A stretch of DNA of 64,000 nucleotides from Muricea muricata (Eukaryota > Cnidaria > Anthozoa > Malacalcyonacea > Plexauridae). Position numbers and translations under genes: made by a program. The notes under the pieces were generated by a model. That model searched no databases and was not told where the DNA came from. It saw only the letters and a program-made list of their open reading frames with translations. The stretch lies in contig OY979717.1 of the NCBI GenBank assembly GCA_963855995.1, forward strand, positions 51,839,140 to 51,903,139, given 5' to 3'. Shown here in pieces: positions 6,399-64,000 of this stretch (its first letter is position 1; every line of letters starts with the position of its first letter).

Positions 6399-6510
6399 AC
6401 ATCATTTTTTACAACATCGAGTTCAACATTTTGTCCAGTCCGCCGATTGCATAACTTCAACAATGATATTAATCTAGTTCTGTTATCGACATAAAATGTT
6501 CGGCTCACTG

Positions 6511-6582
6511 TCCCATGTGGTCTAGTGGTTAGGATTTGGCGCTTTCACCGCCATGGCCCGGGTTCGATTCCCGGCATGGGAA
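6511..6582 (+). tRNA. trnE-UUC: tRNA-Glu (UUC) in the CUC slot, first array gene
   Basis: Full 72-nt cloverleaf. The loop is CTTTCAC, so the anticodon is UUC (6544-6546) although the flanks are those of the CUC slot. One change before the anticodon stem (C26 to T). Confidence 0.9.
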
Positions 6583-7017
6583 ATTTTCCACTATGTGCTG
6601 CATTTTTCTTCATAAACAATAAAAGAAAAACGATCCCTTAGTTTAAACGTCATCAATATTTGTAAAATTTAGGGCTAAGATTTTTGTGTCGTCTAGCGCT
6701 GGAAATATTTTAACAATAATTCTAATCTAGTTGCTTAGTTTTTGGGGAAAAATATGCCTGTTCGAAAGAAAAGAAAATTTTAGGAACGAAAGATTTAATT
6801 TGAAGACATCATTCTATGATCTACGCTTTGAATTTCTGTGATGTTGTTCAGTGATGTTATAATCGTCGTCCGTTGTATATGATATTGATATAATAATTTT
6901 GAAAGCTTCACTTCAATTTCCAAACGGTTTTCTAAATTTTGACAATGCTAACAATTCTAAGATTGTACCGAATTATTGAGAAGTACACGCGAGTTCGCTA
7001 GAGGCGGTCGTTGAAGT

Positions 7018-7080
7018 GCGTTGGTGGTTCAGTGGTAGAATTCTCGCCTGCCACGCTGGAGACCGGGGTTCGATTCCCCG
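7018..7080 (+). pseudogene. Truncated tRNA-Gly (GCC)
   Basis: The 3' acceptor strand is missing: after CCCCG the sequence jumps to spacer that normally lies about 150 bp downstream. G41 is also changed to T. Confidence 0.85.
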
Positions 7081-7190
7081 AAACAATCAGATCGGACTGA
7101 ACAGCTGAAACCTCTTTTTTTAGAGGATTCTAGAGAATCCTTTGATATCTGCTCCAAAAATAAAAGGAAAATAGAAAACGCCAGAGAGAC

Positions 7191-7262
7191 TCCCATGTGC
7201 TCTAGTGGTTAGGATCTGGCGTTTTCACCGCCATGGCCCGGGTTCGATTCCCGGCATGGGAA
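7191..7262 (+). tRNA. trnE-UUC: tRNA-Glu (UUC)
   Basis: Anticodon at 7224-7226. Only G10 to C departs from consensus, weakening the first D-stem pair and the A box. Confidence 0.85.
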
Positions 7263-7446
7263 ATTCACGGCTATGTCTATTTTTCTTCATCATAAAGTAA
7301 CCAAAAAACCCCTCTTTCCAATGCTATTGTACATCATCATTTTTTACAACATTCGAGTTTAACATTTTGTCCAGTCCGCCGATTGCATAACTTCAACAAT
7401 GATTGTAATCTAGTTCGGTTATCGACATCAAATGTTCGGCTGACTG

Positions 7447-7497
7447 TCCCATGTGGTCTAGTGATTAGCATCTAGCGTTCGATTCCCGGCATGGGAA
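7447..7497 (+). pseudogene. tRNA-Glu (CUC slot) lacking anticodon arm
   Basis: 51 nt only: about 21 bp from the anticodon stem into the T stem are deleted, joining GCG to TTCGATT. Cannot decode. Confidence 0.9.
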
Positions 7498-7939
7498 ATT
7501 TTCCACTATGTGCTGCATTTTTCTTCTTCATCAAACAATAAAAGAAAAACGATATCCTTAGTTTATATGTCGTCAAACTTTGTAAAATATAGAGCTAAGA
7601 TTTTTGTGTCGTCTAGCGCTGGAAATATTTTAACAATATTTCTAATCTAGTTGCTTAGTTTTTAGAGAAAAAAATATGCCTGTTCGAAAGAAATGAAAAT
7701 TTTAGGAACGAAAGATTTAATTTGACGACATCATTCTATGATCTACGCTTTGAATTTCTGTGATGTTGTTCAGTGATGTTATAATCGTCGTCCGTTGTAT
7801 ATGATATTGATATAATAATTTTGAAAGCTTCACTTCAATTTCCAAACGGTTTTCTAAATTTTGACAATGCTAACAATTCTAAGATTGTACCGACTTATTA
7901 AGAGATACACGCGAGTTAGCAAAAGGCGGTCGTTGAAGT

Positions 7940-8010
7940 GCGTTGGTGGTTCAGTGGTAGAATTCTCGCCTGCCACCCGGGAGACCAGGGTTCAATTTCC
8001 CTCCAACGCA
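7940..8010 (+). tRNA. trnG-GCC: tRNA-Gly (GCC), diverged T arm
   Basis: Anticodon at 7972-7974. The T arm is AGGGTTCAATTTCCCT, still paired but with a B box G-to-A change; G39 to C mismatches the last anticodon-stem pair. May be weak. Confidence 0.65.
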
Positions 8011-8217
8011 AGCGTAAAGAATTTGGAATATTTTTATGCCCTGAATGACTTCAAATGTTAGATATTTATGAGAATATTTCAATACATCCTTCATAACCAC
8101 ATTCTTTGAAACAATAAGATCGGACTGAACAGCTGAAACCTCTTTTTTTATAAATTCTAGAGAATCCTTTGATATCTGCTCCTAAAATAAAAGGAAAATA
8201 GAAAACGCCTGAGAGAC

Positions 8218-8289
8218 TCCCATGTGGTCTAGTGGTTAGGATCTGGCGTTTTCACCGCCATGGCCCGGGTTCGATTCCCGGCATGGGAA
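8218..8289 (+). tRNA. trnE-UUC: tRNA-Glu (UUC)
   Basis: Consensus copy; anticodon at 8251-8253. Confidence 0.95.
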
Positions 8290-8473
8290 ATTCACGGCTA
8301 TGTCCTTTTTTCTTCATCATAAAGTAACCAAAAAAACCCTCTTTCCAATGCTATGGTACTTCATCATTTTTTACAACATTCGAGTTTAACATTTTGTCCA
8401 CTCCGCCGATTGCATAACTTCAACAATGATTGTAATCTAGTTCTTTTATGGACATCAAATGTTCGGCTCACTG

Positions 8474-8545
8474 TCCCATGTGGTCTAGCGGTTAGGATCT
8501 GGCGCTCTCACCGCCATCGCCCGGGTTCGATTCCCGGCATGGGAA
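8474..8545 (+). tRNA. trnE-CUC: tRNA-Glu (CUC)
   Basis: Anticodon at 8507-8509. G45 to C in the variable loop only. Confidence 0.9.
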
Positions 8546-14082: not shown

Positions 14083-14580
14083 TAGTCCGGTCGCTTAGCG
14101 GTTAAAATTGGCAACATCTGTACAAAGCGGACAAAGTCAGTATTTCCTTCCCCGCAACTCCTAAGTCAAATTGAAATGTTTTTGGGGGTGTAATGAAGAT
14201 ATTCACAAAATTTATCATCCCGGGGGGGGGGGGAAGTTCCGTTTTTTAAATAACGGTTCGGGATGTTTGTTCATGTTTTACTCAATCATTGTATTTAATA
14301 ATAAGGTGTTGGGATATTGTTCAAAGACATGGACTTGACAACAGATAAATGGGCATAAAAAATTTCCTGTTTGATGTTCTCACATTAAATATCATTGACT
14401 GGCAGAGAAACATTGCCAACCGTTAACGTACCACTTCACTGTGGTAACACCCCCCTAACTTTAAAATTTAAGGCACCCGTTCTTAAATTGATTAGGAGGC
14501 ATAGTTAATCAATTGTAGGGGGGGGGGGTGCTCAAGTTTGTACACGCCAGTACAGATCGTTTGGTTAAGCGACTTCACTA
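14083..14580. mobile_element. 498-bp MITE with TAGT...ACTA ends
   Basis: Inserted in the long spacer between a Glu(CUC) and a Gly gene. The ends are TAGTCCGGTCGCTTA and, inverted, TAGTGAAGTCGCTTA (12 of 15 match). A 3-bp ATA target duplication (14080-14082 and 14581-14583) is supported by all other units, which have the empty site. The interior has long G and C runs and no ORF. The 3-bp duplication suggests a PIF/Harbinger-like mobilised element, but a TA-type duplication cannot be excluded. Confidence 0.75.
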
Positions 14581-19213: not shown

Positions 19214-19230
19214 ATTCACGGCTATGTCCA

Positions 19231-19474: not shown

Positions 19475-19909
19475 CTGTATGTGCTGCATTTTTCTTCTTC
19501 ATCAAACAATAAAAGGAAAACGATATCCTTAGTTTATATGTCGTCAAACTTTGTAAAATTTAGAGCTAAGATTTTTCTTTCGTCTAGCGCTGGAAATATT
19601 TTAACAATATTTCTAATCTAGTTGCTTAGTTTTTGGAAAAAAAATATGCCTATTCGAAAGAAATGAAAAGTTTAGGAACGAAAGATGTAATTTGACGACG
19701 TCATTCTATTACCTACGCTTTGAGTTTCTGTGTTGTTGTTCAGTGATCTTATAATCGTGGTCCGTTGTATATGATATTGATATAATAACTTTGAAAGCTT
19801 CACTTCAATTTCCAAACAGTTTTCTAAATTTTGACAATGCTAACAATTCTAAGATTGTACCGAATTATTAAGAAGTACACGCGAGTTAGCAAAAGACAGT
19901 CGTTGAAGT

Positions 19910-19980
19910 GCGTTGGTGGTTCAGTGGTAGAATTCTCGCCTGCCACGCGGGAGACCGGGGTTCGATTCCCCGCCAACGCA
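19910..19980 (+). tRNA. trnG-GCC: tRNA-Gly (GCC)
   Basis: Consensus with fully paired acceptor (CCAACGC); anticodon at 19942-19944. Confidence 0.95.
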
Positions 19981-20000
19981 AGCGTGAAGAATTTGAAATA

Positions 20001-20005
20001 TTTTT
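20001..20005 (+). terminator. Pol III T-run after tRNA-Gly, representative
   Basis: TTTTT about 20 nt past the gene. Many other Gly copies have TTCTTA here instead and lose this terminator. Confidence 0.7.
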
Positions 20006-20188
20006 ATGCCCTGAATGGCTTCAAGTGTTAGATATTTATGAGAATATTTCAATATATTCTTCATAACCACATTCTTTGAAACAATGAGATGGGACTGAAC
20101 AGCTGAATTCTATTTTTTTGATAAATTCTAGAGAATCCTTTGATATCTCATCCTAAAATAAAGGGAAAATGGAAAATGCCTGAGAAGC

Positions 20189-20260
20189 TCCCATGTGGTC
20201 TAGTGGTTAGGATCTGGCGTTTTCACCGCCATAGCCCGGGTTCGATTCCCGGCATAGGAA
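20189..20260 (+). tRNA. trnE-UUC: tRNA-Glu (UUC), acceptor mismatch
   Basis: Anticodon at 20222-20224. CATAGGA leaves one unpaired acceptor position; G45 to A. Confidence 0.65.
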
Positions 20261-20444
20261 ATTCACGGCTATGTCCATTTTTCTTCATCATAAAGTAACC
20301 AAAAAACCCCTCTTTCCAATGCTATTGTACATCATCATTTTTTACAACATTAGAGTTTAATATTTTGTCCAGTCCGCCGATTCCATAACTTCAACAATGA
20401 CTGTAATCTAGTTCTGTTATCGACATCAAATGTTCGGCTCAATG

Positions 20445-20516
20445 TCCGATGTGGTCTAGCGGTTAGGATCTGGCGCTCTCACCGCCATGGCCCGGGTTCG
20501 ATTCCCGGCATGGGAA
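20445..20516 (+). tRNA. trnE-CUC: tRNA-Glu (CUC), C4 to G
   Basis: Anticodon at 20478-20480. TCCGATG makes one G/G acceptor mismatch; the same variant is at 28625 and 39105. Confidence 0.7.
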
Positions 20517-20956
20517 ATTTTCCACTATGTGCTGCATTTTTCTTCTTCATCAAACAATAAAAGAAAAACGGTTCCCTTAGTTTAAATGTCATCAATATTT
20601 CTAAAATTTAGGGCTAAGATTTTTTTGTCGTCTTGCGCTGGAAATATTTTAACAATAATCCTAATCTAGTTGCTTTGTTTTTGGGGAAAAAATACGCCTA
20701 TTCGAACGAAATGAAAATTTTAGGAACGAAAGATTTAATTTGACGACATCATTCCATTATCTACGCCTTTAGTTTCTGTGATGTTGTTCAGTGATGTTAT
20801 AATCGTCGTCCGTTGTATATGATATTGATATAATAATTTTGAAAGCTTCACTTCAATTTCCAAACGGTTTTCTAAATTTTGACAATGCTAACAATTCTAA
20901 GATTGTACCGAATTATTAAGAAGTTTAGCGATTTAGCAAAAGGCGGTCGTTGAAGT

Positions 20957-48699: not shown

Positions 48700-48745
48700 C
48701 ATATTAAGAGATACACGCGAGTTAGCAAAAGGCGGTCGTTGAAGT

Positions 48746-49791: not shown

Positions 49792-49862
49792 GCGTTGGTG
49801 GTTCAGTGGTAGAATTCTCGCCTACCACGCGTGAGACCGGGGTTCGATTCTCCGCTAACGCA
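49792..49862 (+). tRNA. Gly-type tRNA with ACC anticodon
   Basis: Loop CTACCAC gives ACC at 49824-49826. One anticodon-stem (GTGAG) and one T-stem change; weaker sister of 54691. Confidence 0.6.
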
Positions 49863-50069
49863 AGCGTAAAGAATTTGGAATACTTTTATGCTTTGAATGG
49901 CTTCAAGTGTTAGATATTTATGAGCATATTTCAATATATTCTTTATACCAGATTCTTTGAAACAATGAAATCGGACTGAACAGCTGAATTCTCTTTTTCT
50001 GATAAATTCTAAAGAATCCTTTGATATCTGCTCCTAAAATAAACGGAAAATAGAAAATGCCTGAGAAGC

Positions 50070-50141
50070 TCCCATGTGGTCTAGTGGTTAGGATCTGGCG
50101 CTATCACTGCCATGGCCCGGGTTCGATTCCCGGCATGGGAA
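50070..50141 (+). tRNA. Glu-type tRNA with AUC anticodon
   Basis: UUC-slot gene whose loop is CTATCAC, giving AUC (50103-50105), nominally Asp. The stem TGGCG/TGCCA pairs (one G-U) and the rest is consensus. The loop matches the CUC-slot pseudogene at 44949, suggesting gene conversion. Confidence 0.7.
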
Positions 50142-50323
50142 AGTCACGGCTATGTCCATTTTTCTTCATCATAAAGTAACCAAAAAACCCTTCTTTCCAA
50201 TGCTATTGTACATGATCATTTTTTACAACATTAGAATTAAACATTTTTCCAGTCTGCCGATTGCATAACTTCAACAATGATTGTAATCTAGTTCATCAAC
50301 AACATCAACTGTTCCGCTGACTC

Positions 50324-50368
50324 TCCCATGTGGTCTAGTGGTTAGGATCTGGCGCTCTCACCGCCATG
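50324..50368 (+). pseudogene. 5' half of tRNA-Glu (CUC) fused to Gly leader
   Basis: 45-nt half with intact A box; leader CTGACTC. Confidence 0.85.
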
Positions 50369-50414
50369 CATATTAAGAGATACACGCGAGTTAGCAAAAG
50401 GCGGTCGTTGAAGT

Positions 50415-50485
50415 GCGTTGGTGGTGTAGTGTTAGAATTCTCGCCTGCCACCCGGGAGACCGGAGTTCGATTCCCCGCCAACGCA
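50415..50485 (+). tRNA. trnG-GCC: tRNA-Gly (GCC), altered D arm
   Basis: Anticodon at 50447-50449. GTGTAGTGTTAG D arm, CACCCGGG stem. Confidence 0.5.
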
Positions 50486-50692
50486 AGCGTAAAGAATTTG
50501 GAATATTCTTATGCCCTGAATGACTTCACTTGTTAGATATTTATGAGAATATTTCAATATATCCTTCATAACCACATTCTTTGAAACAATCAGATCGGCC
50601 TGAACAGCTGAAACCTCTTTTTTTAGAGGTTCTAGACAATCCTTTAAAATCTGCTGCAAAAATAAAAGGAAAATAGAAAACGCCTGAGAGAC

Positions 50693-50764
50693 TCCCATGT
50701 GGTCTAGTGGTTAGGATCTGGCGTTTTCACCGCCATGGCCCGGGTTCGATTCCCGGCATGGGAA
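50693..50764 (+). tRNA. trnE-UUC: tRNA-Glu (UUC)
   Basis: Consensus; anticodon at 50726-50728. Confidence 0.95.
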
Positions 50765-50948
50765 ATTCACGGCTATGTCCATTTTTCTTCATCATAAAGT
50801 AACCAAAAAACCCCTCTTTCCAATGCTATTGTACATCATAATTTTTTACAACATTCGAGTTTAACATTTTGTCCACTCCTCCGATTGCATAACTTCAACA
50901 ATGATTGTAATCTAGTTCTGTTATGGACATCAAATGTTCGACTCACTG

Positions 50949-51020
50949 TCCCATGTGGTCTAGCGGTTAGGATCTGGCGCTCTCACGGCCATGGCCCGGG
51001 TTCGATTCCCGGCATGGGAA
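50949..51020 (+). tRNA. trnE-CUC: tRNA-Glu (CUC), one stem mismatch
   Basis: Anticodon at 50982-50984. CACGGCC gives G/G beside the loop. Confidence 0.7.
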
Positions 51021-51405
51021 ATTTTTCACTATGTGCTGCATTTTTCTTCTTCATCAAAGAATAAAAGAAAAACGATATCCTTAGTTTATATGTCGTCAAA
51101 CTTTGTAAAATTTAGAGCTAAGATTTTTTGTCGTCTAGCGCTGGAAATATTTTAACAATATTTCTAATCTAGTTGCTTTGTTTTTGGGGAAAAAATATGC
51201 CTATTCGAAAGAAATGAAAATTTCAGGAACGAAAGATGTAATTTGACGACATCATTCTATTACCTACGCTTTGAGTTTCTGTGATGTTGTTCAGTGATGT
51301 TATAATCGTCGTCCGTTGTATATGATATTGATATAATAACTTTGAAAGCTTCACTTCAATTTCCAAACGGATTTCTAAATTTTGACAAAAAGCGGTCGTT
51401 GAAGT

Positions 51406-51476
51406 GCGTTGGTGGTTCAGTGGTAGAATTCTCGCCTGCCACGCGGGAGACCGGGGTTCGATTCCCCGCTAACGCA
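51406..51476 (+). tRNA. trnG-GCC: tRNA-Gly (GCC), short leader type
   Basis: Consensus body; anticodon at 51438-51440. Confidence 0.93.
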
Positions 51477-51683
51477 AGCGTAAAGAATTTGGAATACTTT
51501 TATGCCCTGAATGGCTTCAAGTGTTAGATATTTATGAGCATATTTCAATATAGTCTTTATACCACATTCTTTGAAAGAATGAAATCGGACTGAACAGCTG
51601 AATTCTCTTTTTCTGATAAATTCTAGAGAATCCTTTGATATCTGCTCGTAAAATAAACGGAAAATAGAAAATGCCTGAGAAGC

Positions 51684-51755
51684 TCCCATGTGGTCTAGTG
51701 GTTAGGATCTGGCGTTTTCACCGCCATGGCCCGGGTTCGATTCCCGGCATGGGAA
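51684..51755 (+). tRNA. trnE-UUC: tRNA-Glu (UUC)
   Basis: Consensus; anticodon at 51717-51719. Confidence 0.95.
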
Positions 51756-51937
51756 AGTCACGGCTATGTCCATTTTTCTTCATCATAAAGTAACCAAAAA
51801 ACCCTTCTTTCCAATGCTATTGTACATGATCATTTTTTACAACATTAGAATTCAACATTTTTCCAGTCTGCCGATTGCATAACTTCAACAATGATTGTAA
51901 TCTAGTTCATCAACAACATCAACTGTTCCGCTGACTG

Positions 51938-51982
51938 TCCCATGTGGTCTAGTGGTTAAGATCTGGCGCTCTCACCGCCATG
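51938..51982 (+). pseudogene. 5' half of tRNA-Glu (CUC) fused to Gly leader
   Basis: Carries GGTTAAGAT like 48655, marking them as sister copies. Confidence 0.85.
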
Positions 51983-52028
51983 CATATTAAGAGATACACG
52001 CGAGTTAGCAAAAGGCGGTCGTTGAAGT

Positions 52029-52099
52029 GCGTTGGTGGTGTAGTGCTAGAATTCTCGCCTTCCACCCGGGAGACCGGAGTTCGATTCCCCGCCAACGCA
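52029..52099 (+). tRNA. trnG-UCC: tRNA-Gly (UCC), altered D arm
   Basis: UCC at 52061-52063; same body as 48746. Confidence 0.5.
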
Positions 52100-52306
52100 A
52101 GCGTAAAGAATTTGGAATATTCTTATGCCCTGAATGACTTCACTTGTTAGATATTTATGAGAATATTTCAATATATCCTTCATAACCACATTCTTTGAAA
52201 CAATCAGATCGGCCTGAACAGCTGAAACCTCTTTTTTTAGAGGTTCTAGAGAATCCTTTAAAATCTGCTCCAAAAATAAAAGGAAAATAGAAAACGCCTG
52301 AGAGAC

Positions 52307-52378
52307 TCCCATGTGGTCTAGTGGTTAGGATCTGGCGTTTTCACCGCCATGGCCCGGGTTCGATTCCCGGCATGGGAA
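52307..52378 (+). tRNA. trnE-UUC: tRNA-Glu (UUC)
   Basis: Consensus; anticodon at 52340-52342. Confidence 0.95.
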
Positions 52379-52562
52379 ATTCACGGCTATGTCCATTTTT
52401 CTTCATCATAAAGTAACCAAAAAACCCCTCTTTCCAATGCTATTGTACATCATAATTTTTTACAACATTCGAGTTTAACATTTTGTCCACTCCGCCGATT
52501 GCATAACTTCAACAATGATTGTAGTCTAGTTCTGTTATGGACATCAAATGTTCGACTCACTG

Positions 52563-52634
52563 TCCCATGTGGTCTAGCGGTTAGGATCTGGCGCTCTCAC
52601 CGCCATGGCTCGTTTTCGATTCCCGGCATGGGAA
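52563..52634 (+). pseudogene. tRNA-Glu (CUC) with broken T stem
   Basis: GGCTCGTTTTCG replaces GGCCCGGGTTCG, losing most T-stem pairs. Confidence 0.6.
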
Positions 52635-53019
52635 ATTTTTCACTATGTGCTGCATTTTTCTTCTTCATCAAAGAATAAAAGAAAAACGATATCCTTAGTT
52701 TATATGTCGTCAAACTTTGTAAAATTTAGAGCTAAGATTTTTTGTCGTCTAGCGCTGGAAATATTTTAACAATATTTCTAATCTAGTTGCTTTGTTTTTG
52801 GGGAAAAAATATGCCTATTCGAAAGAAATGAAAATTTTAGGAACGAAAGATGTAATTTGACGACATCATTCTATTACCTACGCTTTGAGTTTCTGTGATG
52901 TTGTTCAGTGATGTTATAATCGTCGTCCGTTGTATATGATATTGATATAATAACTTTGAAAGCTTCACTTCAATTTCCAAACGGATTTCTAAATTTTGAC
53001 AAAAAGCGGTCGTTGAAGT

Positions 53020-53090
53020 GCGTTGGTGGTTCAGTGGTAGAATTCTCGCCTGCCACGCGGGAGACCGGGGTTCGATTCCCCGCTAACGCA
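53020..53090 (+). tRNA. trnG-GCC: tRNA-Gly (GCC), short leader type
   Basis: Consensus body; anticodon at 53052-53054. Confidence 0.93.
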
Positions 53091-53297
53091 AGCGTAAAGA
53101 ATTTGGATTACTTTTATGCCCTGAATGGCTTCAAGTGTTAGATATTTATGAGCATATTTCAATATATTCTTTATACCAGATTCTTTGAAACAATGAAATC
53201 GGACTGAACAGCTGAATTCTCTTTTTCTGATAAATTCTAGAGAATCCTTTGATATCTGCTCCTAAAATAAACGGAAAATAGAAAATGCCTGAGAAGC

Positions 53298-53369
53298 TCC
53301 AATGTGGTCTAGTGGTTAGGATCTGGCGTTTTCACCGCCATGGCCCGGGTTCGATTCCCGGCATGGGAA
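53298..53369 (+). tRNA. trnE-UUC: tRNA-Glu (UUC), C4 to A
   Basis: Anticodon at 53331-53333. TCCAATG makes one acceptor mismatch. Confidence 0.7.
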
Positions 53370-53551
53370 AGTCACGGCTATGTCCATTTTTCTTCATCAT
53401 AAAGTAACCAAAAAACCCTTCTTTCCAATGCTATTGTACATGATCATTTTTTACAACATTAGAATTCAACATTTTTCCAGTCTGCCGATTGCATAACTTC
53501 AACAATGATTGTAATCTAGTTCATCAACAACATCAACTGTTCCGCTGACTC

Positions 53552-53596
53552 TCCCATGTGGTCTAGTGGTTAGGATCTGGCGCTCTCACCGCCATG
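53552..53596 (+). pseudogene. 5' half of tRNA-Glu (CUC) fused to Gly leader
   Basis: 45-nt half, leader CTGACTC, sister to 50324 and 55223. Confidence 0.85.
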
Positions 53597-53642
53597 CATA
53601 TTAAGAGATACACGCGAGTTAGCAAAAGGCGGTCGTTGAAGT

Positions 53643-53713
53643 GCGTTGGTGGTGTAGTGCTAGAATTCTCGCCTGCCACCCGGGAGACCGGAGTTCGATT
53701 CCCCGCCAACGCA
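53643..53713 (+). tRNA. trnG-GCC: tRNA-Gly (GCC), altered D arm
   Basis: Anticodon at 53675-53677. GTGTAGTGCTAG D arm, CACCCGGG stem, GGAGTTCG T arm. Confidence 0.5.
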
Positions 53714-53921
53714 AGCGTAAAGAATTTGGAATATTCTTATGCCCTGAATGACTTCACTTGTTAGATATTTATGAGAATATTTCAATATATCCTTCATAAC
53801 CACATTCTTTGAAACAATCAAATCGGACTGAACAGCTGAAACCTCTTTTTTTCGAGCATTCTAGAGAATCCTTTGATATCTGCTCCAAAAATAAAAGGAA
53901 AATAGAAAACGCCTGAGAGAC

Positions 53922-53993
53922 TCCCATGTGGTCTAGTGGTTAGGATCTGGCGTTTTCACCGCCATGGCCCGGGTTCGATTCCCGGCATGGGAA
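53922..53993 (+). tRNA. trnE-UUC: tRNA-Glu (UUC)
   Basis: Consensus; anticodon at 53955-53957. Confidence 0.95.
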
Positions 53994-54177
53994 ATTCACG
54001 GCTATGTCCATTTTTCTTCATCATAAAGTAACCAAAAAACCCCTCTTTCTAATGCTATTGTACATCATAATTTTTTACAACATTCGAGTTTAACATTTTG
54101 TCCACTCCGCCGATTGCATAACTTGAACAATGACTGTAATCTAGTTCTGTTATGGACATCAAATGTTCGGCTCACTG

Positions 54178-54249
54178 TCCGATGTGGTCTAGCGGTTAGG
54201 ATCTGGCGCTCTCACCGCCATGGCCCGGGTTGGATTCCCGGCATGGGAA
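54178..54249 (+). pseudogene. tRNA-Glu (CUC), B-box and acceptor changes
   Basis: C4 to G and GGTTGGATT. Confidence 0.6.
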
Positions 54250-54690
54250 ATTTTCCACTATGTGCTGCATTTTTCTTCTTCATCAAACAATAAAAGAAAA
54301 ACGATTCCCTTAGTTTAAATGTCATCAATATTTCTAAAATTTAGGGCTAAGATTTTTTTGTCGTCTAGCGCTGGAAATATTTTAACAATAATTCTAATCT
54401 AGTTGCTTCGTTTTTGGGGAAAAAATACGCCTATTCGAAAGAAATGAAAATTTTAGGAACGAAAGATTTAATTTGACGACATCATTCCATTATCTACGCC
54501 TTTAATTTCTGTGATGTTGTTCAGTGATGTTATAATCGTCGTCCGTTGTATATGATATTGATATAATAATTTTGAAAGCTTCACTTCAATTTCCAAACGG
54601 TTTTCTAAATTTTGACAATGCTAACAATTCTAAGATTGTACCAAATTATTGAGAAGTACACGCGAAATAGCAAAAGGCGGTCGTTGAAAT

Positions 54691-54761
54691 GCGTTGGTGG
54701 TTCAGTGGTAGAATTCTCGCCTACCACGCGGGAGACCGGGGTTCGATTCCCCGCTAACGCA
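54691..54761 (+). tRNA. Gly-type tRNA with ACC anticodon
   Basis: Consensus Gly body throughout, with G34 to A only: loop CTACCAC, anticodon ACC at 54723-54725. Stem CTCGC/GCGGG is fully paired. Confidence 0.85.
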
Positions 54762-54968
54762 AGCGTAAAGAATTTGGAATACTTTTATGCCCTGAATGGC
54801 TTCAAGTGTTAGATATTTATGAGCATATTTCAAAATATTCTTTATACCAGATTCTTTGAAACAATGAAATCGGACTGAACAGCTGAATTCTCTTTTTCTG
54901 ATAAATTCTAGAGAATCCTTTGATATCTGCTCCTAAAATAAACGGAAAATAGAAAATGCCTGAGAAGC

Positions 54969-55040
54969 TCCAATGTGGTCTAGTGGTTAGGATCTGGCGT
55001 TTTCACCGCCATGGCCCGGGTTCGATTCCCGGCATGGGAA
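54969..55040 (+). tRNA. trnE-UUC: tRNA-Glu (UUC), C4 to A
   Basis: Anticodon at 55002-55004; one acceptor mismatch as at 53298. Confidence 0.7.
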
Positions 55041-55222
55041 AGTCACGGCTATGTCCATTTTTCTTCATCATAAAGTAACCAAAAAACCCTTCTTTCCAAT
55101 GCTATTGTACATGATCATTTTTTACAACATTAGAATTCAACATTTTTCCAGTCTGCCGATTGCATAACTTCAACAATGATTGTAATCTAGTTCATCAACA
55201 ACATCAACTGTTCCGCTGACTC

Positions 55223-55267
55223 TCCCATGTGGTCTAGTGGTTAGGATCTGGCGCTCTCACCGCCATG
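55223..55267 (+). pseudogene. 5' half of tRNA-Glu (CUC) fused to Gly leader
   Basis: 45-nt half, leader CTGACTC. Confidence 0.85.
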
Positions 55268-55313
55268 CATATTAAGAGATACACGCGAGTTAGCAAAAGG
55301 CGGTCGTTGAAGT

Positions 55314-55384
55314 GCGTTGGTGGTGTAGTGCTAGAATTCTCGCCTGCCACCCGGGAGACCGGGGTTCGATTCCCCGCCAACGCA
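55314..55384 (+). tRNA. trnG-GCC: tRNA-Gly (GCC), altered D arm
   Basis: Anticodon at 55346-55348. GTGTAGTGCTAG D arm but a good T arm. Confidence 0.55.
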
Positions 55385-55591
55385 AGCGTAAACAATTTGG
55401 AATATTCTTATGCCCTGAATGACTTCACTTGTTGGATATTTATGAGAATATTTCAATATATCCTTCATAACCACATTCTTTGAAACAATCAGATCGGACT
55501 GAACAGCTGAAACCTCTTTTTTTAGAGGTTCTAGAGAATCCTTTAAAATCTGCTCCAAAAATAAAAGGAAAATAGAAAACGCCTGAGAGAC

Positions 55592-55663
55592 TCCCATGTG
55601 GTCTAGTGGTTAGGATCTGGCGTTTTCACCGCCATGGCCCGGGTTCGATTCCCGGCATGGGAA
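55592..55663 (+). tRNA. trnE-UUC: tRNA-Glu (UUC)
   Basis: Consensus; anticodon at 55625-55627. Confidence 0.95.
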
Positions 55664-55847
55664 AGTCACGGCTATGTCCATTTTTCTTCATCATAAAGTA
55701 ACCAAAAAACCCCTCTTTCCAATGCTATTGTACATCATAATTTTTTACAACATTCGAGTTTAACATTTTGTCCACTCCGCCGATTGCATAACTTCAACAA
55801 TGATTGTAATCTAGTTCTGTTATGGACATCAAATGCTCGACTCACTG

Positions 55848-55919
55848 TCCCATGTGGTCTAGCGGTTAGGATCTGGCGCTCTCACCGCCATGGCCCGGGT
55901 TCGATTCCCGGCATGGGAA
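55848..55919 (+). tRNA. trnE-CUC: tRNA-Glu (CUC)
   Basis: Consensus; anticodon at 55881-55883. Confidence 0.95.
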
Positions 55920-56305
55920 ATTTTTCACTATGTGCTGCATTTTTCTTCTTCATCAAAGAATAAAAGAAAAACGATATCCTTAGTTTATAGGTCGTCAAAC
56001 TTTGTAAAATTTAGAGCTAAGATTTTTTTGTCGTCTAGCGCTGGAAATATTTTAACAATATTTCTAATCTAGTTGCTTTGTTTTTTGGGAAAAATTATGC
56101 CTATTCGAAAGAAATGAAAATTTTAGGAACGAAAGATGTAATTTGACGACATCATTCTATTACCTACGCTTTGAGTTTCTGTGATGTTGTTCAGTGATGT
56201 TATAATCGTCGTCCGTTGTATATGATATTGATATAATAACTATGAAAGCTTCACTTCAATTTCCAAACGGATTTCTAAATTTTGACAAAAAGCGGTCGTT
56301 GAAGT

Positions 56306-56376
56306 GCGTTGGTGGTTCAGTGGTAGAATTCTCGCCTGCCACGCGGGAGACCGGGGTTCGATTCCCCGCTAACGCA
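56306..56376 (+). tRNA. trnG-GCC: tRNA-Gly (GCC), short leader type
   Basis: Consensus body; anticodon at 56338-56340. Confidence 0.93.
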
Positions 56377-56583
56377 AGCGTAAAGAATTTGGAATACTTT
56401 TATGCCCTGAATGGCTTCAAGTGTTAGATATTTATGAGCATATTTCAATATATTCTTTATACCAGATTCTTTGAAACAATGAAATCGGACTGAACAGCTG
56501 AATTCTCCTTTTCTGATAAATTCTAGAGAATCCTTTGATATGTGCTCCTAAAATAAACGGAAAATGGAAAATGCCCGAGAAGC

Positions 56584-56655
56584 TCCCATGTGGTCTAGTG
56601 GTTAGGATCTGGCGTTTTCACCGCCATGGCCCGGGTTCGATTCCCGGCATGGGAA
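56584..56655 (+). tRNA. trnE-UUC: tRNA-Glu (UUC)
   Basis: Consensus; anticodon at 56617-56619. Confidence 0.95.
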
Positions 56656-56839
56656 ATTTACGGCTATGTCCATTTTTCTTCATCATAAAGTAACCAAAAA
56701 ACCCTTCTTTCCAATGCTATTGTACATCATCATTTTTTACAACATTAGAGTTTAATATTTTGTCCAGTCCGCCGATTGCTTAACTTCAACAATGACTGTA
56801 ATCTAGTTCTGTTATCGACATCAAATGTTCGGCTCACTG

Positions 56840-56893
56840 TCCGATGTGGTCTAGCGGTTAGGATCTGGCGCTCTCACCGCCATGGCCCGGGAA
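56840..56893 (+). pseudogene. tRNA-Glu (CUC) lacking T arm
   Basis: 18 bp are missing between two GGG triplets, fusing GCCCGGG to AAATTTT; T loop, B box and 3' acceptor strand are lost. Confidence 0.9.
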
Positions 56894-57335
56894 ATTTTCC
56901 ACTATGTGCTGCATTTTTCTTCTTCATCAAACAATAAAAGAAAAACGATTCCCTTAGTTTAAATGTCATCAATATTTGTAAAATTTAGGGCTAAGATTTT
57001 TTTGTCGTCTAGCGCTGGAAATATTTTAACAATAACTCTAATCTAGTTGCTTAGTTTTTGGGGAAAAAAATATGCCTGTTCGAAAGAAATGAAAATTTTA
57101 GGAACGAAAGATTTAATTTGACGAATTCATTCTATGATCTACGCTTTGAATTTCTGTGATGTTGTTCAGTGATGTTATAATCGTCGTCCGTTGAATATGA
57201 TATTGATATAATAATTTTGAAAGCTTGTTTTCAATTTCCAAACGGTTTTCTAAATTTTGACAATGCTAACAATTCTAAGATTGTATCGAGTTATTAAGAA
57301 ATACACGCCAGTTAGAAAAAGGCGGTCGTTGAAGT

Positions 57336-57406
57336 GCGTTGTTTGTTCAGTGGTAGAATTCTCGCCTTCCACCCGGGAGACCGGGATTCGATTCCCCGCT
57401 AACGCA
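57336..57406 (+). tRNA. trnG-UCC: tRNA-Gly (UCC), weakened
   Basis: UCC at 57368-57370. GTTTGTTCAGTGG D-arm changes, C/C stem mismatch and GGGATTCG. Confidence 0.5.
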
Positions 57407-57613
57407 AGCGTAAACAATTTGGAATATTTTTATGCCTTGAATGACTTCAAATGTTAGATATTTATGAGAATATTTCAATATATCCTTCATAATTACATTT
57501 TTTGAAACAATGAGATGGGACTGAACAGTTGAAACCACTTTTTTTATAAATTCTAGAGAACCCTTTGATATCTGCTCCAAAAATAAAAGGAAAATAGAAA
57601 ATACCTGAGAGAC

Positions 57614-57685
57614 TCCGATGTGGTCTAGTGGTGAGGATCTGGCGTTTTCACCGCCATGGCCCGGGTTCGTTTCCCGGCATGGGAA
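57614..57685 (+). pseudogene. tRNA-Glu (UUC), several changes
   Basis: C4 to G, T20 to G and TTCGTTT T loop. Confidence 0.5.
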
Positions 57686-57869
57686 ATTCACGGCTATGTC
57701 AATTTTTCTTCACCATAAAGTAACCAAAAAACCCCTCTTTCCAATGCTATTGTACATCATCATTTTTTACAACATTCGAGTTTAAAATTTTGTCCAGTCC
57801 GCCGATATCATAACTTCAACAATGATTGTAATCTAGTTGGGTTATCGACATCAAATGTTCGGCTGACTG

Positions 57870-57941
57870 TCCCATGTGGTCTAGTGATTAGCATCTGGCG
57901 CTCTCACTGCCATGGCCCGGGTTCGATTCCCGGCATGGGAA
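57870..57941 (+). tRNA. trnE-CUC: tRNA-Glu (CUC), D-loop variant
   Basis: Anticodon at 57903-57905. GTGATTAGCAT D loop; one G-U in the anticodon stem. Confidence 0.7.
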
Positions 57942-58383
57942 ATTTTCCACTATGTGCTGCATTTTTCTTTTTCATCAAAGAATAAAAGAAAAACGATATC
58001 CTTAGTTTATATGTCGTCAAACTTTGTAAAATATAGAGCTAAGATTTTTGTGTCGTTTAGCGCTGGAAATATTTTAACAATATTTCTAATCTAGTTTCTT
58101 AGTGTTTAGGGAAAAAAATATGCCTGTTCGAAAGAAATGAAAATTTTAGGAACGAAAGATTTAATTTGACGACATCATTCTATGATCTACGCTTTGAATT
58201 TCTGTGATGTTGTTCAGTGATGTTATAATCGTGGTCCGTTGTATATGATATTGATATAATAACTTTGAAAGCTTCACTTCAATTTCCAAACGGTTTTCTA
58301 AATTTTGACAATGCTAACAATTCTAAGATTGTACCGACTTATTAAGAAGTACACACGAAATAGCAAAAAGCGGTCGTTGAAGT

Positions 58384-58454
58384 GCGTTGTTGGTTCAGTG
58401 GTAGAATTCTCGCCTGCCACGCGGGAGACCGGGGTTCGATTCCCCGCCAACGCA
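58384..58454 (+). tRNA. trnG-GCC: tRNA-Gly (GCC)
   Basis: Anticodon at 58416-58418. GCGTTGT start leaves the last acceptor pair open. Confidence 0.8.
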
Positions 58455-58662
58455 AGCGTGAAGAATTTGAAATATTTTTATGCCCTTAATGGCTTCAAGT
58501 GTTAGATATTTATGAGAATATTTAAATATATTCTTCATCACCACATTCTTTGAAACAATGAGATCGGACTGAACAGCTGAATTCTATTTTTTTGATAAAT
58601 TCTAGAGAATCCTTTGATATCTGCTCCTAAAATAAAGGGAAAATGGAAAATGCCTGAGAAGC

Positions 58663-58707
58663 TCCCATGTGGTCTAGTGGTTAGGATCTGGCGCTCTCAC
58701 CGCCATG
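58663..58707 (+). pseudogene. 5' half of tRNA-Glu (CUC) with a UUC-slot leader
   Basis: The leader is that of the UUC slot (GCCTGAGAAGC), but the body is the CUC half ending at the usual junction: a crossover inside the two Glu bodies. Confidence 0.85.
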
Positions 58708-58752
58708 CATATTAAGAGTACACGCGAGTTAGCAAAAGGCGGTCGTTGAAGT

Positions 58753-58823
58753 GCGTTGGTGGTGTAGTGCTAGAATTCTCGCCTTCCACGCGGGAGACCG
58801 GGGTTCGATTCCCCGCCAACGCA
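58753..58823 (+). tRNA. trnG-UCC: tRNA-Gly (UCC)
   Basis: UCC at 58785-58787 with a fully paired anticodon stem and T arm, but GTGTAGTGCTAG D arm. Confidence 0.6.
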
Positions 58824-59030
58824 AGCGTAAAGAATTTGGAATATTCTTATGCCCTGAATGACTTCACTTGTTAGATATTTATGAGAATATTTCAATATAT
58901 CCTTCATAACCACATTCTTTGAAACAATCAGATCGGACTGAACAGCTGAAACCTCTTTTTTTAGAGGTTCTAGAGAATCCTTTAAAATCTGCTCCAAAAA
59001 TAAAAGGAAAATAGAAAACGCCTGAGAGAC

Positions 59031-59094
59031 TCCCATGTGGTTAGGATCTGGCGTTTTCACCGTCATGGCCCGGGTTCGATTCCCGGCATGGGAA
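59031..59094 (+). pseudogene. tRNA-Glu (UUC) lacking most of the D arm
   Basis: 8 bp between two GTGG repeats are deleted; CGTCA also mismatches the anticodon stem. Confidence 0.9.
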
Positions 59095-59278
59095 ATTCAC
59101 GGCTATGTCCATTTTTCTTCATCATAAAGTAACCAAAAAATCCCTCTTTCCAATGCTATTGTACATCATAATTTTGTACAACATTCGAGTTTAACATTTT
59201 GTCCACTCCGCCGATTGCATAACTCCAACAATGATTGTAATCTAGTTCTGTTATGGACATCAAATATTCGACTCACTG

Positions 59279-59350
59279 TCCCATGTGGTCTAGCGGTTAG
59301 GATCTGGCGCTCTCACCGCCATGGCCCGGGTTCGATTCCCGGCATGGGAA
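59279..59350 (+). tRNA. trnE-CUC: tRNA-Glu (CUC)
   Basis: Consensus; anticodon at 59312-59314. Confidence 0.95.
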
Positions 59351-59736
59351 ATTTTTCACTATGTGCTGCATTTTTCTTCTTCATCAAAGAATAAAAGAAA
59401 AACGATATCCTTAGTTTATATGTCGTCAAACTTTGTAAAATTTAGAGCTAAGATTTTTTTGTCGTCTAGCGCTGGAAATACTTTAACAATATTTCTAATC
59501 TAGTTGCTTTGTTTTTGGGGAAAAAATATGCCTATTCGAAAGAAATGAAAATTTTAGGAACGAAAGATGTAATTTGACGACATCATTCTATTACCTACGC
59601 TTTGAGTTTCTGTGATGTTGTTCAGTGATGTTATAATCGTCGTCCGTTGTATATGATATTGATATAATAACTTTGAAAGCTTCACTTCAATTTCCAAACG
59701 GATTTCTAAATTTTGACAAAAGGCGGTCGTTGAAGT

Positions 59737-59807
59737 GCGTTGGTGGTTCAGTGGTAGAATTCTCGCCTGCCACGCGGGAGACCGGGGTTCGATTCCCCGC
59801 TAACGCA
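59737..59807 (+). tRNA. trnG-GCC: tRNA-Gly (GCC), short leader type
   Basis: Consensus body; anticodon at 59769-59771. Confidence 0.93.
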
Positions 59808-60015
59808 AGCGTAAAGAATTTGGAATACTTTTATGCCCTGAATGGCTTCAAGTGTTAGATATTTATGAGAATATTTCAATATATTCTTCATAACCACATT
59901 CTTTGAAACAGTGAGATCCGACTGAACAGCTGAATTCTATTTTTCTGATAAATTCTAGAGAATCCTTTGATATCTGCTCCTAAAATAAACGGAAAATAGA
60001 AAATGCCTGAGAAGC

Positions 60016-60087
60016 TCCCATGTGGCCAAGTGGTTAGGATCTGGCGTTTTCACCGCCATGGCCCGGGTTCGATTCCCGGCATGGGAA
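60016..60087 (+). tRNA. trnE-UUC: tRNA-Glu (UUC), A-box variant
   Basis: Anticodon at 60049-60051. TGGCCAAGTGG replaces TGGTCTAGTGG, still an acceptable A box. Confidence 0.75.
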
Positions 60088-60269
60088 TTTACGGCTATGT
60101 CCATTTTTCTTCATCATAAAGTAACCAAAAAACCCTTCTTTCCAATGCTATTGTACATCATCATTTTTTACAACATTAGAGTTTAATATTTTGTCTAGTC
60201 CGCCGATTGCATAACTTAAACAATGATTGTAATCTAGTTCATCAACAACATCAACTGTTCCGCTGACTG

Positions 60270-60314
60270 TCCCATGTGGTCTAGTGGTTAGGATCTGGCG
60301 CTCTCACCGCCATG
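60270..60314 (+). pseudogene. 5' half of tRNA-Glu (CUC) fused to Gly leader
   Basis: Last copy of the recurrent junction. Confidence 0.85.
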
Positions 60315-60360
60315 CATATTAAGAGATACACGCGAGTTAGCAAAAGGCGGTCGTTGAAGT

Positions 60361-60431
60361 GCGTTGGTGGTGTAGTGCTAGAATTCTCGCCTGCCACCCG
60401 GGAGACCGGAGTTCGATTCCCCGCCAACGCA
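60361..60431 (+). tRNA. trnG-GCC: tRNA-Gly (GCC), altered D arm
   Basis: Anticodon at 60393-60395. Same variant as 53643. Confidence 0.5.
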
Positions 60432-60637
60432 AGCGTAAAGAATTGGAATATTCTTATGCCCTGAATGACTTCACTTGTTAGATATTTATGAGAATATTTC
60501 AATATATCCTTCATAACCACATTCTTTGAAACAATCAGATCGGACTGAACAGCTGAAACCTCTTTTTTTAGAGGTTCTAGACAATCCTTTAAAATCTGCT
60601 CCAAAAATAAAAGGAAAATAGAAAACGCCTGAGAGAC

Positions 60638-60709
60638 TCCCATGTGGTCTAGTGGTTAGGATCTGGCGTTTTCACCGCCATGGCCCGGGTTCGATTCCCG
60701 GCATGGGAA
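60638..60709 (+). tRNA. trnE-UUC: tRNA-Glu (UUC)
   Basis: Consensus; anticodon at 60671-60673. Confidence 0.95.
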
Positions 60710-60893
60710 ATTCACGGCTATGTCCATTTTTATTCATCATAAAGTAACCAAAAAACCCCTCTTTCCAATGCTATTGTACATCATAATTTTTTACAACATT
60801 CGAGTTTAACATTTTGTCCACTCCGCCGATTGCATAACTTCAACAATGATTGTAATCTAGTTCTGTTATGGACATCAAATGTTCGGCTCACTG

Positions 60894-60965
60894 TCCCATG
60901 TGGTCTAGCGGTTAGGATCTGGCGCTCTCACCGCCATGGCCCGGGTTCGATTCCCGGCATGGGAA
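60894..60965 (+). tRNA. trnE-CUC: tRNA-Glu (CUC)
   Basis: Consensus; anticodon at 60927-60929. Confidence 0.95.
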
Positions 60966-61351
60966 ATTTTTCACTATGTGCTGCATTTTTCTTCTTCATC
61001 AAAGAATAAAAGAAAAACGATATCCTTAGTTTATATGTCGTCAAACTTTGTAAAATTTAGAGCTAAGATTTTTTTGTCGTCTAGCGCTGGAAATATTTTA
61101 ACAATATTTCTAATCTAGTTGCTTTGTTTTTGGGGAAAAAATATGCCTATTCGAAAGAAATGAAAATTTTAGGAACGAAAGATGTAATTTGACGACATCA
61201 TTCTATTACCTACGCTTTGAGTTTCTGTGATGTTGTTCAGTGATGTTATAATCGTCGTCCGTGGTATATGATATTGATATAATAACTTTGAAAGCTTCAC
61301 TTCAATTTCCAAACGGATTTCTAAATTTTGACAAAAAGCGGTCGTTGAAGT

Positions 61352-61701: not shown

Positions 61702-61883
61702 AGTCACGGCTATGTCCATTTTTCTTCATCATAAAGTAACCAAAAAACCCTTCTTTCCAATGCTATTGTACATGATCATTTTTTACAACATTAGAATTCA
61801 ACATTTTTCCAGTCTGCCGATTGCATAACTTCAACAATGATTGTAATCTAGTTCATCAACAACATCAACTGTTCCGCTGACTG

Positions 61884-61955
61884 TCCCATGTGGTCTAGTG
61901 GTTAGGATCTGGCGCTCTCACCGCCATGGTCCGGGTTCGATTCCCGGCATGGGAA
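61884..61955 (+). tRNA. trnE-CUC: tRNA-Glu (CUC)
   Basis: Anticodon at 61917-61919. C47 to T, shared with its CCC-bearing duplicate at 16275. Confidence 0.93.
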
Positions 61956-62397
61956 ACTTTCCACTATGTGCTGCATTTTTCTTCTTCATCAAACAATAAA
62001 AGAAAAACGATATCCATAGTTTATATGTCGTTAAACTTTGTAAAATATAGAGCTAAGATTTTTGTGTCGTCTAGCGCTGGAAATATTTTAACTATATTTC
62101 TAATCTAGTTGCTTAGTTTTTGGGGAAAAAAATATGCCTGTTCGAAAGAAATGAAAATTTTAAGAACGAAAGATTTAATTTGACAACATCATTCTATGAT
62201 CTACGCTTTGAATTTCTGTGATGTTGTTCAGTGATTTTATAATCGTCGTCCGTTGTATATGATATTGATATAATAATTTTAAAAGCTTGTTTTGAATTTC
62301 CCAACGGTTTTCTAAATTTTGACAATGCTAACAATTCTAAGATTTTACCGACTTATTAAGAAATACACGCGAGTTAGCAAAAGGCGGTCGTTGAAGT

Positions 62398-62468
62398 GCG
62401 TTGGTGGTTCAGTGGTAGAACTCTCGCCTGCCACCTGGGAGACCGGGGTTCGATTCCCCGCCAACGCA
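62398..62468 (+). tRNA. trnG-GCC: tRNA-Gly (GCC)
   Basis: Anticodon at 62430-62432. CACCTGGG variant with shortened trailer, as at 16790 and 35446. Confidence 0.75.
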
Positions 62469-62656
62469 AGCGTAAACAGTTTGGAATATTCTTATGTTAG
62501 ATATTTATGAGAATATTTCAATATATCCTTCATAACCCCATTCTTTGAAACAATCAGATGGGACTGAACAGTTGAAACCTCTTTTTTTATAAATTCTAGA
62601 GAATCCTTTGATATCTGCTCCAAAAATAAAAGGAAAATAGAAAACGACTGAGAGAC

Positions 62657-62728
62657 TCCCATGTGGTCTAGTGGTTAGGATCTGGCGTTTTCACCGCCAT
62701 GGCCCGGGTTCGATTCCCGGCATGGGAA
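62657..62728 (+). tRNA. trnE-UUC: tRNA-Glu (UUC)
   Basis: Consensus; anticodon at 62690-62692. Its duplicate at 17049 has a B-box mutation. Confidence 0.95.
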
Positions 62729-62912
62729 ATTCACGGCTATGTCCATTTTTATTCATCATAATGTAACCAAAAAACCCCTTTATCCAATGCTATTGTACAT
62801 CATCATTTTTTACAACATTCGAGTCTAAAATTTTGTCCAGTCCGCCGATTGCATAACTTCAACAATGATTGTAATATAGTTCGGTTATCGACATCAAATG
62901 TTCGGCTGACTG

Positions 62913-62984
62913 TCCCATGTGGTCTAGTGATTAGCATCTGGCGCTCTCACCGCCATGGCCCGGGTTCGATTCCCGGCATGGGAA
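62913..62984 (+). tRNA. trnE-CUC: tRNA-Glu (CUC), D-loop variant
   Basis: Anticodon at 62946-62948. GTGATTAGCAT D loop. Confidence 0.75.
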
Positions 62985-63423
62985 ATTTTCCACTATGTGC
63001 TGCATTTTTCTTCTTCATCAAACAATAAAAGAAAAACGATATCCTTAGTTTATATGTCGTCAAACTTTGTAAAATATAGAGCTAAGATTTTTGTGTCGTC
63101 TAGCGCTGGAAATATTTTAACAATAACCATAATCTAGTTGCATAGTTTTTGGGGAAAAAATACCTGTTCGAAAGAAATGAAAATTTTAGGAACGAAAGAT
63201 TTAATTTGACGAATTCATTCTATGATCTACGCTTTGAATTTCTGTGATGTTGTTCAGTGATGTTATAATCGTCCTCCGTTGAGTATGATATTGATATAAT
63301 AATTTTGAAAGCTTGTTTTCAATTTCCAAACGGTTTTCTAAATTTTGACAATGCTAACAATTCTAAGATTGTACCGAGTTATAAAGAAATACACGCCAGT
63401 TAGAAAAAGGCGGTCGTTGAAGT

Positions 63424-63494
63424 GCGTTGTTTGTTCAGTGCTAGAATTCTCGCCTTCCACCCGGGAGACCGGGAATCGATTCCCCGCTAACGCC
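63424..63494 (+). pseudogene. tRNA-Gly-derived, UCC anticodon, degenerate
   Basis: UCC loop but damaged D arm, GGGAATCG in the B box and terminal C. Duplicate of 17817. Confidence 0.6.
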
Positions 63495-63701
63495 AGCGTA
63501 AAGAATTTGGAATATTTTTATGCCTTGAATGACTTCAAATGTTAGATATTTATGAGAATATTTCAATATATCCTTCATAACCACATTCTTTGAAACAATC
63601 AGATCGGACTGAACAGTTGAAACCTCTTTTTTTATAAATTCTAGAGAATCCTTTGATATCTTCTCCCAAAATAAAAGGAAAATAGAAAATGCCTGAGAGA
63701 C

Positions 63702-63773
63702 TCCCACGTGGTCTAGTGGTTAGGATCTGGCGTTTTCACCGCCATAGCCCGGGTTCGATTACCGGCATGGGAA
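63702..63773 (+). tRNA. trnE-UUC: tRNA-Glu (UUC), weakened
   Basis: Anticodon at 63735-63737. T6 to C, G45 to A and one T-stem mismatch (TTACCGG). Confidence 0.6.
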
Positions 63774-63956
63774 TTCACGGCTATGTCCATTTTTCTTCAT
63801 CATAAAGTAACCAAAAAACCCTTCTTTCCAATGCTATTGTACATCATCATTTTTTACAACATTAGAGTTTAATATTTTGTCCAGTCTGCCGATTGCGTAA
63901 CTTCAAGAATGATTGTAATCTAGTTCTGTTATCCACATCAAACGGTCCGCTGACTG

Positions 63957-64000
63957 TCCCATGTGGTCTAGTGGTTAGGATCTGGCGCTATCACCCCCAT
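63957..64000 (+). pseudogene. tRNA-Glu (CUC slot) pseudogene, cut by window end
   Basis: 44 nt visible, loop CTATCAC and CACCCCC stem, matching 18350. Confidence 0.7.

Follow-up and report, generated by a model that had tools for sequence, protein, structure and literature searches.

Positions 6400..64000 of a 64,000-nucleotide stretch of the octocoral Muricea muricata (the window, C2:51,839,140-51,903,139, where C2 is contig OY979717.1 of a genome of 453 Mb in 74 contigs) are occupied by a tandem array of transfer RNA (tRNA) genes. Its unit of about 1047 bp carries genes for tRNA-Gly(GCC), tRNA-Glu(UUC) and tRNA-Glu(CUC), in that order and all on the plus strand. The array itself is new and its kind, cnidarian tRNA tandem arrays, is already known; the twist is that its Glu(UUC) genes form an array-specific class. 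Judging from sequence, we favour, at roughly even confidence, the reading that the array is a redundant chromosomal bank of RNA polymerase III (Pol III) tRNA genes of that class, which would be partly transcribed and perhaps stage-specific.

Architecture, extent and growth of the array

Two gene probes located 177 tRNA-derived copies in the array part of the window, 161 full-length (102 Glu-like and 59 Gly-like) and 16 partial, while on the minus strand of the window no match reached 40 bp; the original prediction, made on this DNA before, had arrived at 176 tRNA-derived loci. ARAGORN called 156 tRNA genes between 6511 and 63773, on the plus strand throughout, and 160 tRNA matches in the window reached the Rfam gathering score. 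Together with a BLAST of the unit against the window, which covered all but 14084-14580, 26343-26782 and two 45-bp gaps, these searches bear out the predicted head-to-tail arrangement, in which the order and orientation of the three tRNA genes are constant. The predicted unit length of about 1,047 bp was also right, but neither the count of about 57 repeats nor a constant period was: the window holds 59 units, counted as Gly starts, and 27 of the 60 pieces measure 1046-1049 bp, eight, in which the second Glu gene is truncated, measure 623-624 bp, and six measure 991-992 bp.

All unit coordinates refer to a full reference unit at 19909..20955 (plus strand), in which tRNA-Gly(GCC) lies at 19910..19980 (Rfam 66.1 bits), tRNA-Glu(UUC) at 20189..20260 (57.8 bits) and tRNA-Glu(CUC) at 20445..20516 (54.1 bits), each on the plus strand and also called by ARAGORN. 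The consensus of each of the three slots folds as a complete cloverleaf. Spacers of about 184-439 bp are AT-rich. Since 46 near-full-length window units have a mean identity of 92.9% with spacers counted in, a chance origin of the array is excluded. A second RNA hidden in the unit was considered and rejected, as Rfam at E up to 1 returned over window 19900-22000 the tRNAs and four matches under their families' gathering scores. Exact unit patterns had no match in viral_contigs or genome_contigs.

The left edge of the array is at window 6400 and the array runs off the right end. Over the next 200 kb to the right unit matches cover 96-100% of every 10-kb bin; window and adjoining 200 kb are hereafter taken together as 264 kb, of which 257.6 kb is array. 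Here ARAGORN called 671 tRNA genes, all on the plus strand, and the gene probes found 725 full-length and 68 partial copies, with 266 Gly starts. Further out, twenty 3-kb samples were screened and the unit was present in six, at 52.15, 52.20, 52.25, 52.30, 52.35 and 52.40 Mb of C2, and absent from eleven at 52.45-54.0 Mb and from three at 51.8, 51.7 and 51.5 Mb. Within the 52.40-Mb sample identity is down to 84-88% and long matches stop at 52,402,326, with a 45-bp match reaching the sample end. Since the unit occurs in this sample and not at 52.45 Mb, the right end lies between C2:52,403,000 and 52,450,000. If unbroken between the 3-kb samples, the array measures at least 557 kb and less than 605 kb, and its copy density implies roughly 1,570 full-length copies. 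The earlier lower bound of 57 kb is thereby respected, with the span then proposed taking in roughly one tenth of the full length.

Growth and turnover of the array proceed through the copying of multi-unit blocks. Adjacent units in the set compared are 93.2% identical and all pairs 92.7%, and the nearest relative of a unit has a median identity of 99.5% at a median distance of 23 kb (n=205; 5 within 1.2 kb, 24 at 1.2-5 kb and 111 beyond 20 kb). Window self-matches at 97.5-98.4% identity extend to 5.5 kb; exact repeats reach 1,091 bp in the window and 5,256 bp in the 257.6-kb array. Amplification also took up a deletion: units shortened to 623 bp, in which half of the Glu(CUC) gene is deleted, recur among units of 984-1048 bp at 46508..61350 (plus strand), where most of them lie, as seen from unit lengths and from self-matches of at least 97.5% spaced, for example, 1614 or 4897 bp apart. 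An insertion with inverted terminal repeats lies inside a Glu(UUC) gene at 26338..26782 (no strand assigned; arms 26338-26372 and 26749-26783, 91% complementary) and is flanked by an 8-9-bp direct repeat, a target duplication, with GTTTTCACC at 26329-26337 and 26783-26791. A second insertion, with weak inverted ends (arms 14083-14097 and 14566-14580, 80% complementary), sits in a Glu(CUC)-Gly spacer at 14084..14580, likewise without strand.

Array-type and scattered genes

Near-consensus copies were searched genome-wide, for Glu with a pattern of 72 letters and at most 3 mismatches. This gave 437 forward and 0 reverse Glu matches (243 within the 264 kb) and 221 forward and 0 reverse Gly matches (142 within the 264 kb), all on C2 among the matches listed. 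Such a distribution does not fit a tRNA-derived short interspersed nuclear element, which would occur as dispersed single elements in both orientations, and that candidate was rejected. The one-sided Glu count also suggested the array as the sole source of Glu(UUC), an idea abandoned once three scattered genes were found. A looser Glu(UUC) pattern matched 359 forward and 2 reverse places and revealed at least three genes off the array, a pair on C4 in facing orientation and a single gene on C12. Searching for the scattered type itself (33 letters, at most 2 mismatches) returned the same three Glu(UUC) genes and no others; further scattered forward-strand Glu(UUC) types are possible.

The three scattered genes are identical over 72 letters, and their surroundings on C4 and C12 share only the gene. 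Between them and the array Glu(UUC) gene ten positions differ; eight of these make up four base pairs, each of which is kept (7:65, 27:43, 29:41 and 30:40), and the remaining two are further sites. Since each of the four differing pairs is kept, the array type is probably not a wreck of the scattered type and would have diverged with its structure maintained and been amplified. A split between cluster and scattered isodecoders, as in the zebrafish-type maternal cluster, is thus seen for Glu(UUC), with 10 differences and three scattered genes. These ten letters tell a tRNA-Glu(UUC) made by the array apart from one made by a scattered gene, so that it becomes answerable here why hundreds of redundant tRNA genes are kept. 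With its compensated differences, the array-specific class makes the function of the array directly testable.

For Gly(GCC), 21 matches to a looser pattern lie on the reverse strand and, since the array is one-stranded, show that there are copies outside it. A non-G variant Gly pattern matched 8 forward places, all on C2, and did not place the 21 reverse matches. A scattered Gly gene with a CCCGGG T-arm was rejected, as it matched at one place only, where ARAGORN called no tRNA.

Copy decay, possible pool conservation and rival explanations

Under the bank reading the founder genes would have worked as tRNAs, Pol III would transcribe at least the intact copies, and selection, where visible, would act on the pool rather than on the copy. 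In its favour stand the complete consensus cloverleaves, the four kept pairs by which the two Glu(UUC) types differ and the distances between units and their nearest relatives. A T-run of at least four lies within 30 bases downstream of 55/55 Glu(UUC), 47/47 Glu(CUC) and 38/59 Gly copies, compared to 38% of random array positions. High-copy variants were examined in 205 of the 266 units, those of 961-1079 bp. Variants present in at least 20 copies are rarer than in the spacer (98/926) in both Glu(UUC) (2/90, p=0.008) and Glu(CUC) (4/100, p=0.034). By heterozygosity, Glu(UUC) falls at the 5th and Glu(CUC) at the 54th percentile among spacer windows; matched for GC and AT columns, both Glu genes lie below the spacers and Gly is about equal to them. 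We take these as a weak sign of what may be pool-level conservation in the Glu genes.

Copies without a broken stem pair number 30/55 for Glu(UUC), 18/47 for Glu(CUC) and 17/59 for Gly in the window, and 135/257, 58/202 and 84/266, respectively, in the 264 kb. All three genes are unbroken in two of the 44 window units that have three full-length genes. A gradient of decay from the array edge was not significant in the window for Gly or Glu(CUC), and was borderline for Glu(UUC) (p=0.05). The several hundred copies are also a record of tRNA gene decay under redundancy.

A number of results count against the bank reading. All stem pairs are retained in just 277 of the 725 full-length copies in the 264 kb, and variants that break a stem show no depletion there (observed/expected 56/46.2 for Glu(CUC), 56/55.0 for Gly and 54/47.6 for Glu(UUC)), with which the window alone agrees; because of both, single copies look expendable, and judged by these variants they show no sign of selection for structure. 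As for Gly, 21 of its 59 window copies are without a Pol III terminator T-run, its high-copy variants (9/106, p=0.61) give no pool-level conservation and its heterozygosity is at the 95th percentile of spacer windows. For Glu(UUC), an excess of singletons in the window (28/40 versus 190/437 in the spacer, p=0.0015) is not significant in the larger set (33/90 versus 282/926, p=0.23). All these p values are uncorrected for several tests and come from units that are not independent. Separately, the higher variability of Gly and Glu(CUC) over the spacers (0.71 and 0.72 versus 0.53 variants per column) was considered as a sign of transcription and rejected, because the excess vanishes once GC and AT columns are compared apart.

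A rival explanation is a passive satellite, in which unequal exchange would have multiplied once-functional tRNA genes into silent repeats with little or no input to the tRNA pool. We consider this a tentative explanation, and it stays a serious rival since sequence alone cannot show transcription. In its favour, stem-breaking variants are undepleted and variant density matched by composition is alike in tRNA and spacer (0.85 versus 0.80 for GC columns, 0.37 versus 0.40 for AT columns); truncated genes were amplified, an element inserted within a gene, and the scattered Glu(UUC) genes could suffice for the cell. A satellite agrees less well with terminators retained in every Glu copy examined, with the depletion of high-copy variants and the low composition-matched heterozygosity of both Glu genes, or with the exact match to the consensus of 67 of the 257 Glu(UUC) copies in the 264 kb.

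It is improbable that the array is primarily a structural element, with bound Pol III factors serving as an insulator, a boundary or an organiser of chromatin and the tRNAs being of secondary importance. A precedent exists in the human 1q23.3 tRNA repeat, which binds CTCF and is a proposed boundary (PMC4041453). The quietest 25-bp spacer stretch of the unit (970-994 of the reference unit, window 20878-20902, upstream of the Gly gene), with 3 variants in 46 units versus about 13 expected from the spacer mean, also speaks for it; this stretch is possibly a conserved element or chance, as it was picked from some 900 windows, and among the nine listed every other spacer window has 6 variants or more. 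Damaged promoters are moreover frequent, an exact B box being present in 127 of the 161 full-length window copies.

More doubtful still is a role in supplying Glu and Gly tRNA halves, for which the array would be kept as a source of tRNA fragments. Mammals contain abundant halves of tRNA-Gly(GCC) and tRNA-Glu(CUC), but the decay of the Gly copies would be left unexplained. Finally, an assembly artefact multiplying a short array, to which identical units and the exact 5,256-bp repeat could point, is the most unlikely explanation, given a mean unit identity of 92.7-92.9%, no 1,500-bp stretch recurring exactly in the window, insertions that uniquely mark single units and a position within a contig of 71.7 Mb. 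A high demand for Glu and Gly tRNA, also raised in the original prediction, may or may not lie behind the array, which is not the sole Glu(UUC) source and in which most copies are no longer intact.

The anticodon departs from UUC, CUC and GCC in 17 of the 161 full-length window copies, and a further copy carries UUC in the CUC slot. A UCC anticodon is found in 7/59 Gly slots of the window, one of them without a broken pair (site 29138-29208 is among such slots), and in 30/266 in the 264 kb; these may be anticodon shifts to another Gly codon. Two genes in the Glu(CUC) slot, at window 25518-25589 and 42247-42318, combine a Lys-type CUU anticodon with unbroken stems; CUU occurs in 12/202 copies of this slot in the 264 kb.

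Known arrays, a second array and the left flank

The original prediction overstated the rarity of long tRNA arrays, as tandem arrays are reported in Hydractinia, Nematostella, Phytophthora infestans, Arabidopsis and human 1q23.3. In Hydractinia such arrays cover all 20 amino acids, and Nematostella has tRNA arrays as well, the authors stating that they found none in other cnidarian genomes (PMC11067881). Nematostella contains more than 17,000 tRNA genes and pseudogenes, 89% of them clustered (PMC2888827). The Glu/Gly array shares with both the cnidarian host, tens to hundreds of similar head-to-tail tRNA units at roughly even tandem spacing, similar spacers of hundreds of bases and more than one isotype in arrays (PMC11067881, PMC2888827). 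It differs in its octocoral host, a group without an array in the authors' statement, in its array-specific Glu(UUC) class and in that copy decay is measured here. Giant tRNA arrays are thus extended to an octocoral; no octocoral nuclear tRNA array is reported in the titles and abstract starts listed from one literature library.

In zebrafish the isodecoders of the egg and early embryo are encoded in highly repetitive regions, whereas scattered genes supply those that rise later (PMC11417395). The coral resembles it in that isodecoders of the repetitive cluster differ from those of scattered genes, whereas developmental expression was measured in zebrafish and the coral array is known from genes alone (PMC11417395). 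The most speculative step of the bank reading follows this analogy: the pool would be used at a restricted stage, for example in the oocyte or early embryo, and the scattered genes would serve the rest. That cnidarian array isodecoders form such an egg- or embryo-specific supply apart from the scattered genes, in a zebrafish-like split, is a speculative suggestion that we regard as possible but somewhat unlikely. If true, a maternal tRNA bank in tandem arrays would be old or have evolved repeatedly in animals, and its signature would be a pool maintained with no selection on single copies.

Most Arabidopsis tissues keep the Ser-Tyr-Tyr cluster silent, and its expression is found mainly in cells of the root cap (PMC12308677). 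As in the coral, its three-gene unit has one isotype doubled, a cluster-specific sequence class and many decayed copies; it has 54 clustered Tyr genes compared to hundreds of copies per slot here, and cell-type expression has been shown in Arabidopsis only (PMC12308677). The human 1q23.3 repeat likewise combines Glu and Gly tRNA genes in a tandem unit, but that unit is 7.3 kb, GC-rich and CTCF-binding, with five tRNA genes on both strands, whereas the coral unit is about 1 kb and one-stranded with AT-rich spacers (PMC4041453). Entamoeba also has tandem units of several tRNA genes, with short tandem repeats between them (PMC2652664). In the coral window Tandem Repeats Finder, at periods up to 500, gave a single 323-bp two-copy duplication and no short intergenic tandem repeats. 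Phytophthora infestans has long arrays whose units hold one to three genes and which unequal exchange probably enlarged; it is unlike the coral in being an oomycete and in the much lower sequence divergence noted by the authors (PMC9584435).

The Glu/Gly array on C2 is one of two tRNA arrays seen in this genome. When 63 of the 55,957 first-look tRNA candidates were scored, 62 fell at C1:68.26-68.74 Mb and one on C12. The former belong to a second giant array at C1:68263855-68744526 (loci L001-L008), on the minus strand, of tRNA-Lys(UUU) genes in units of about 346 bp. In four of these eight loci ARAGORN assigned 33 of 35 genes to tRNA-Lys(UUU) and left two without a clear anticodon. The units have a mean identity of 91% (40 compared of the 58 cut from the eight loci); as the loci were chosen by score, good copies are favoured.

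The flank to the left of the Glu/Gly array contains broken PIF1-helicase-like reading frames at 1638..3772 on the minus strand (open reading frames 1638-2621, 2730-3497 and 3443-3772, Pfam PIF1 being found in the last two), which may be mobile. Among named proteins the nearest come from two octocorals, Dendronephthya gigantea (one query 72% identical over 81% of its length, the other 83% over 51%) and Paramuricea clavata (79% over 64%). Beyond these frames, pattern matches at C2:51778308-51795733 reveal a further, small block with copies of these tRNA genes, set apart from the main array and to its left. Inverted repeats of 35 bp, 97% complementary and 644 bp apart, delimit a stretch at window 4082-4795 that resembles a small DNA transposon, and immediately left of the array, at window 5029-5606, lie degenerate direct repeats, each 24-57 bp long and about 140-350 bp from the next.

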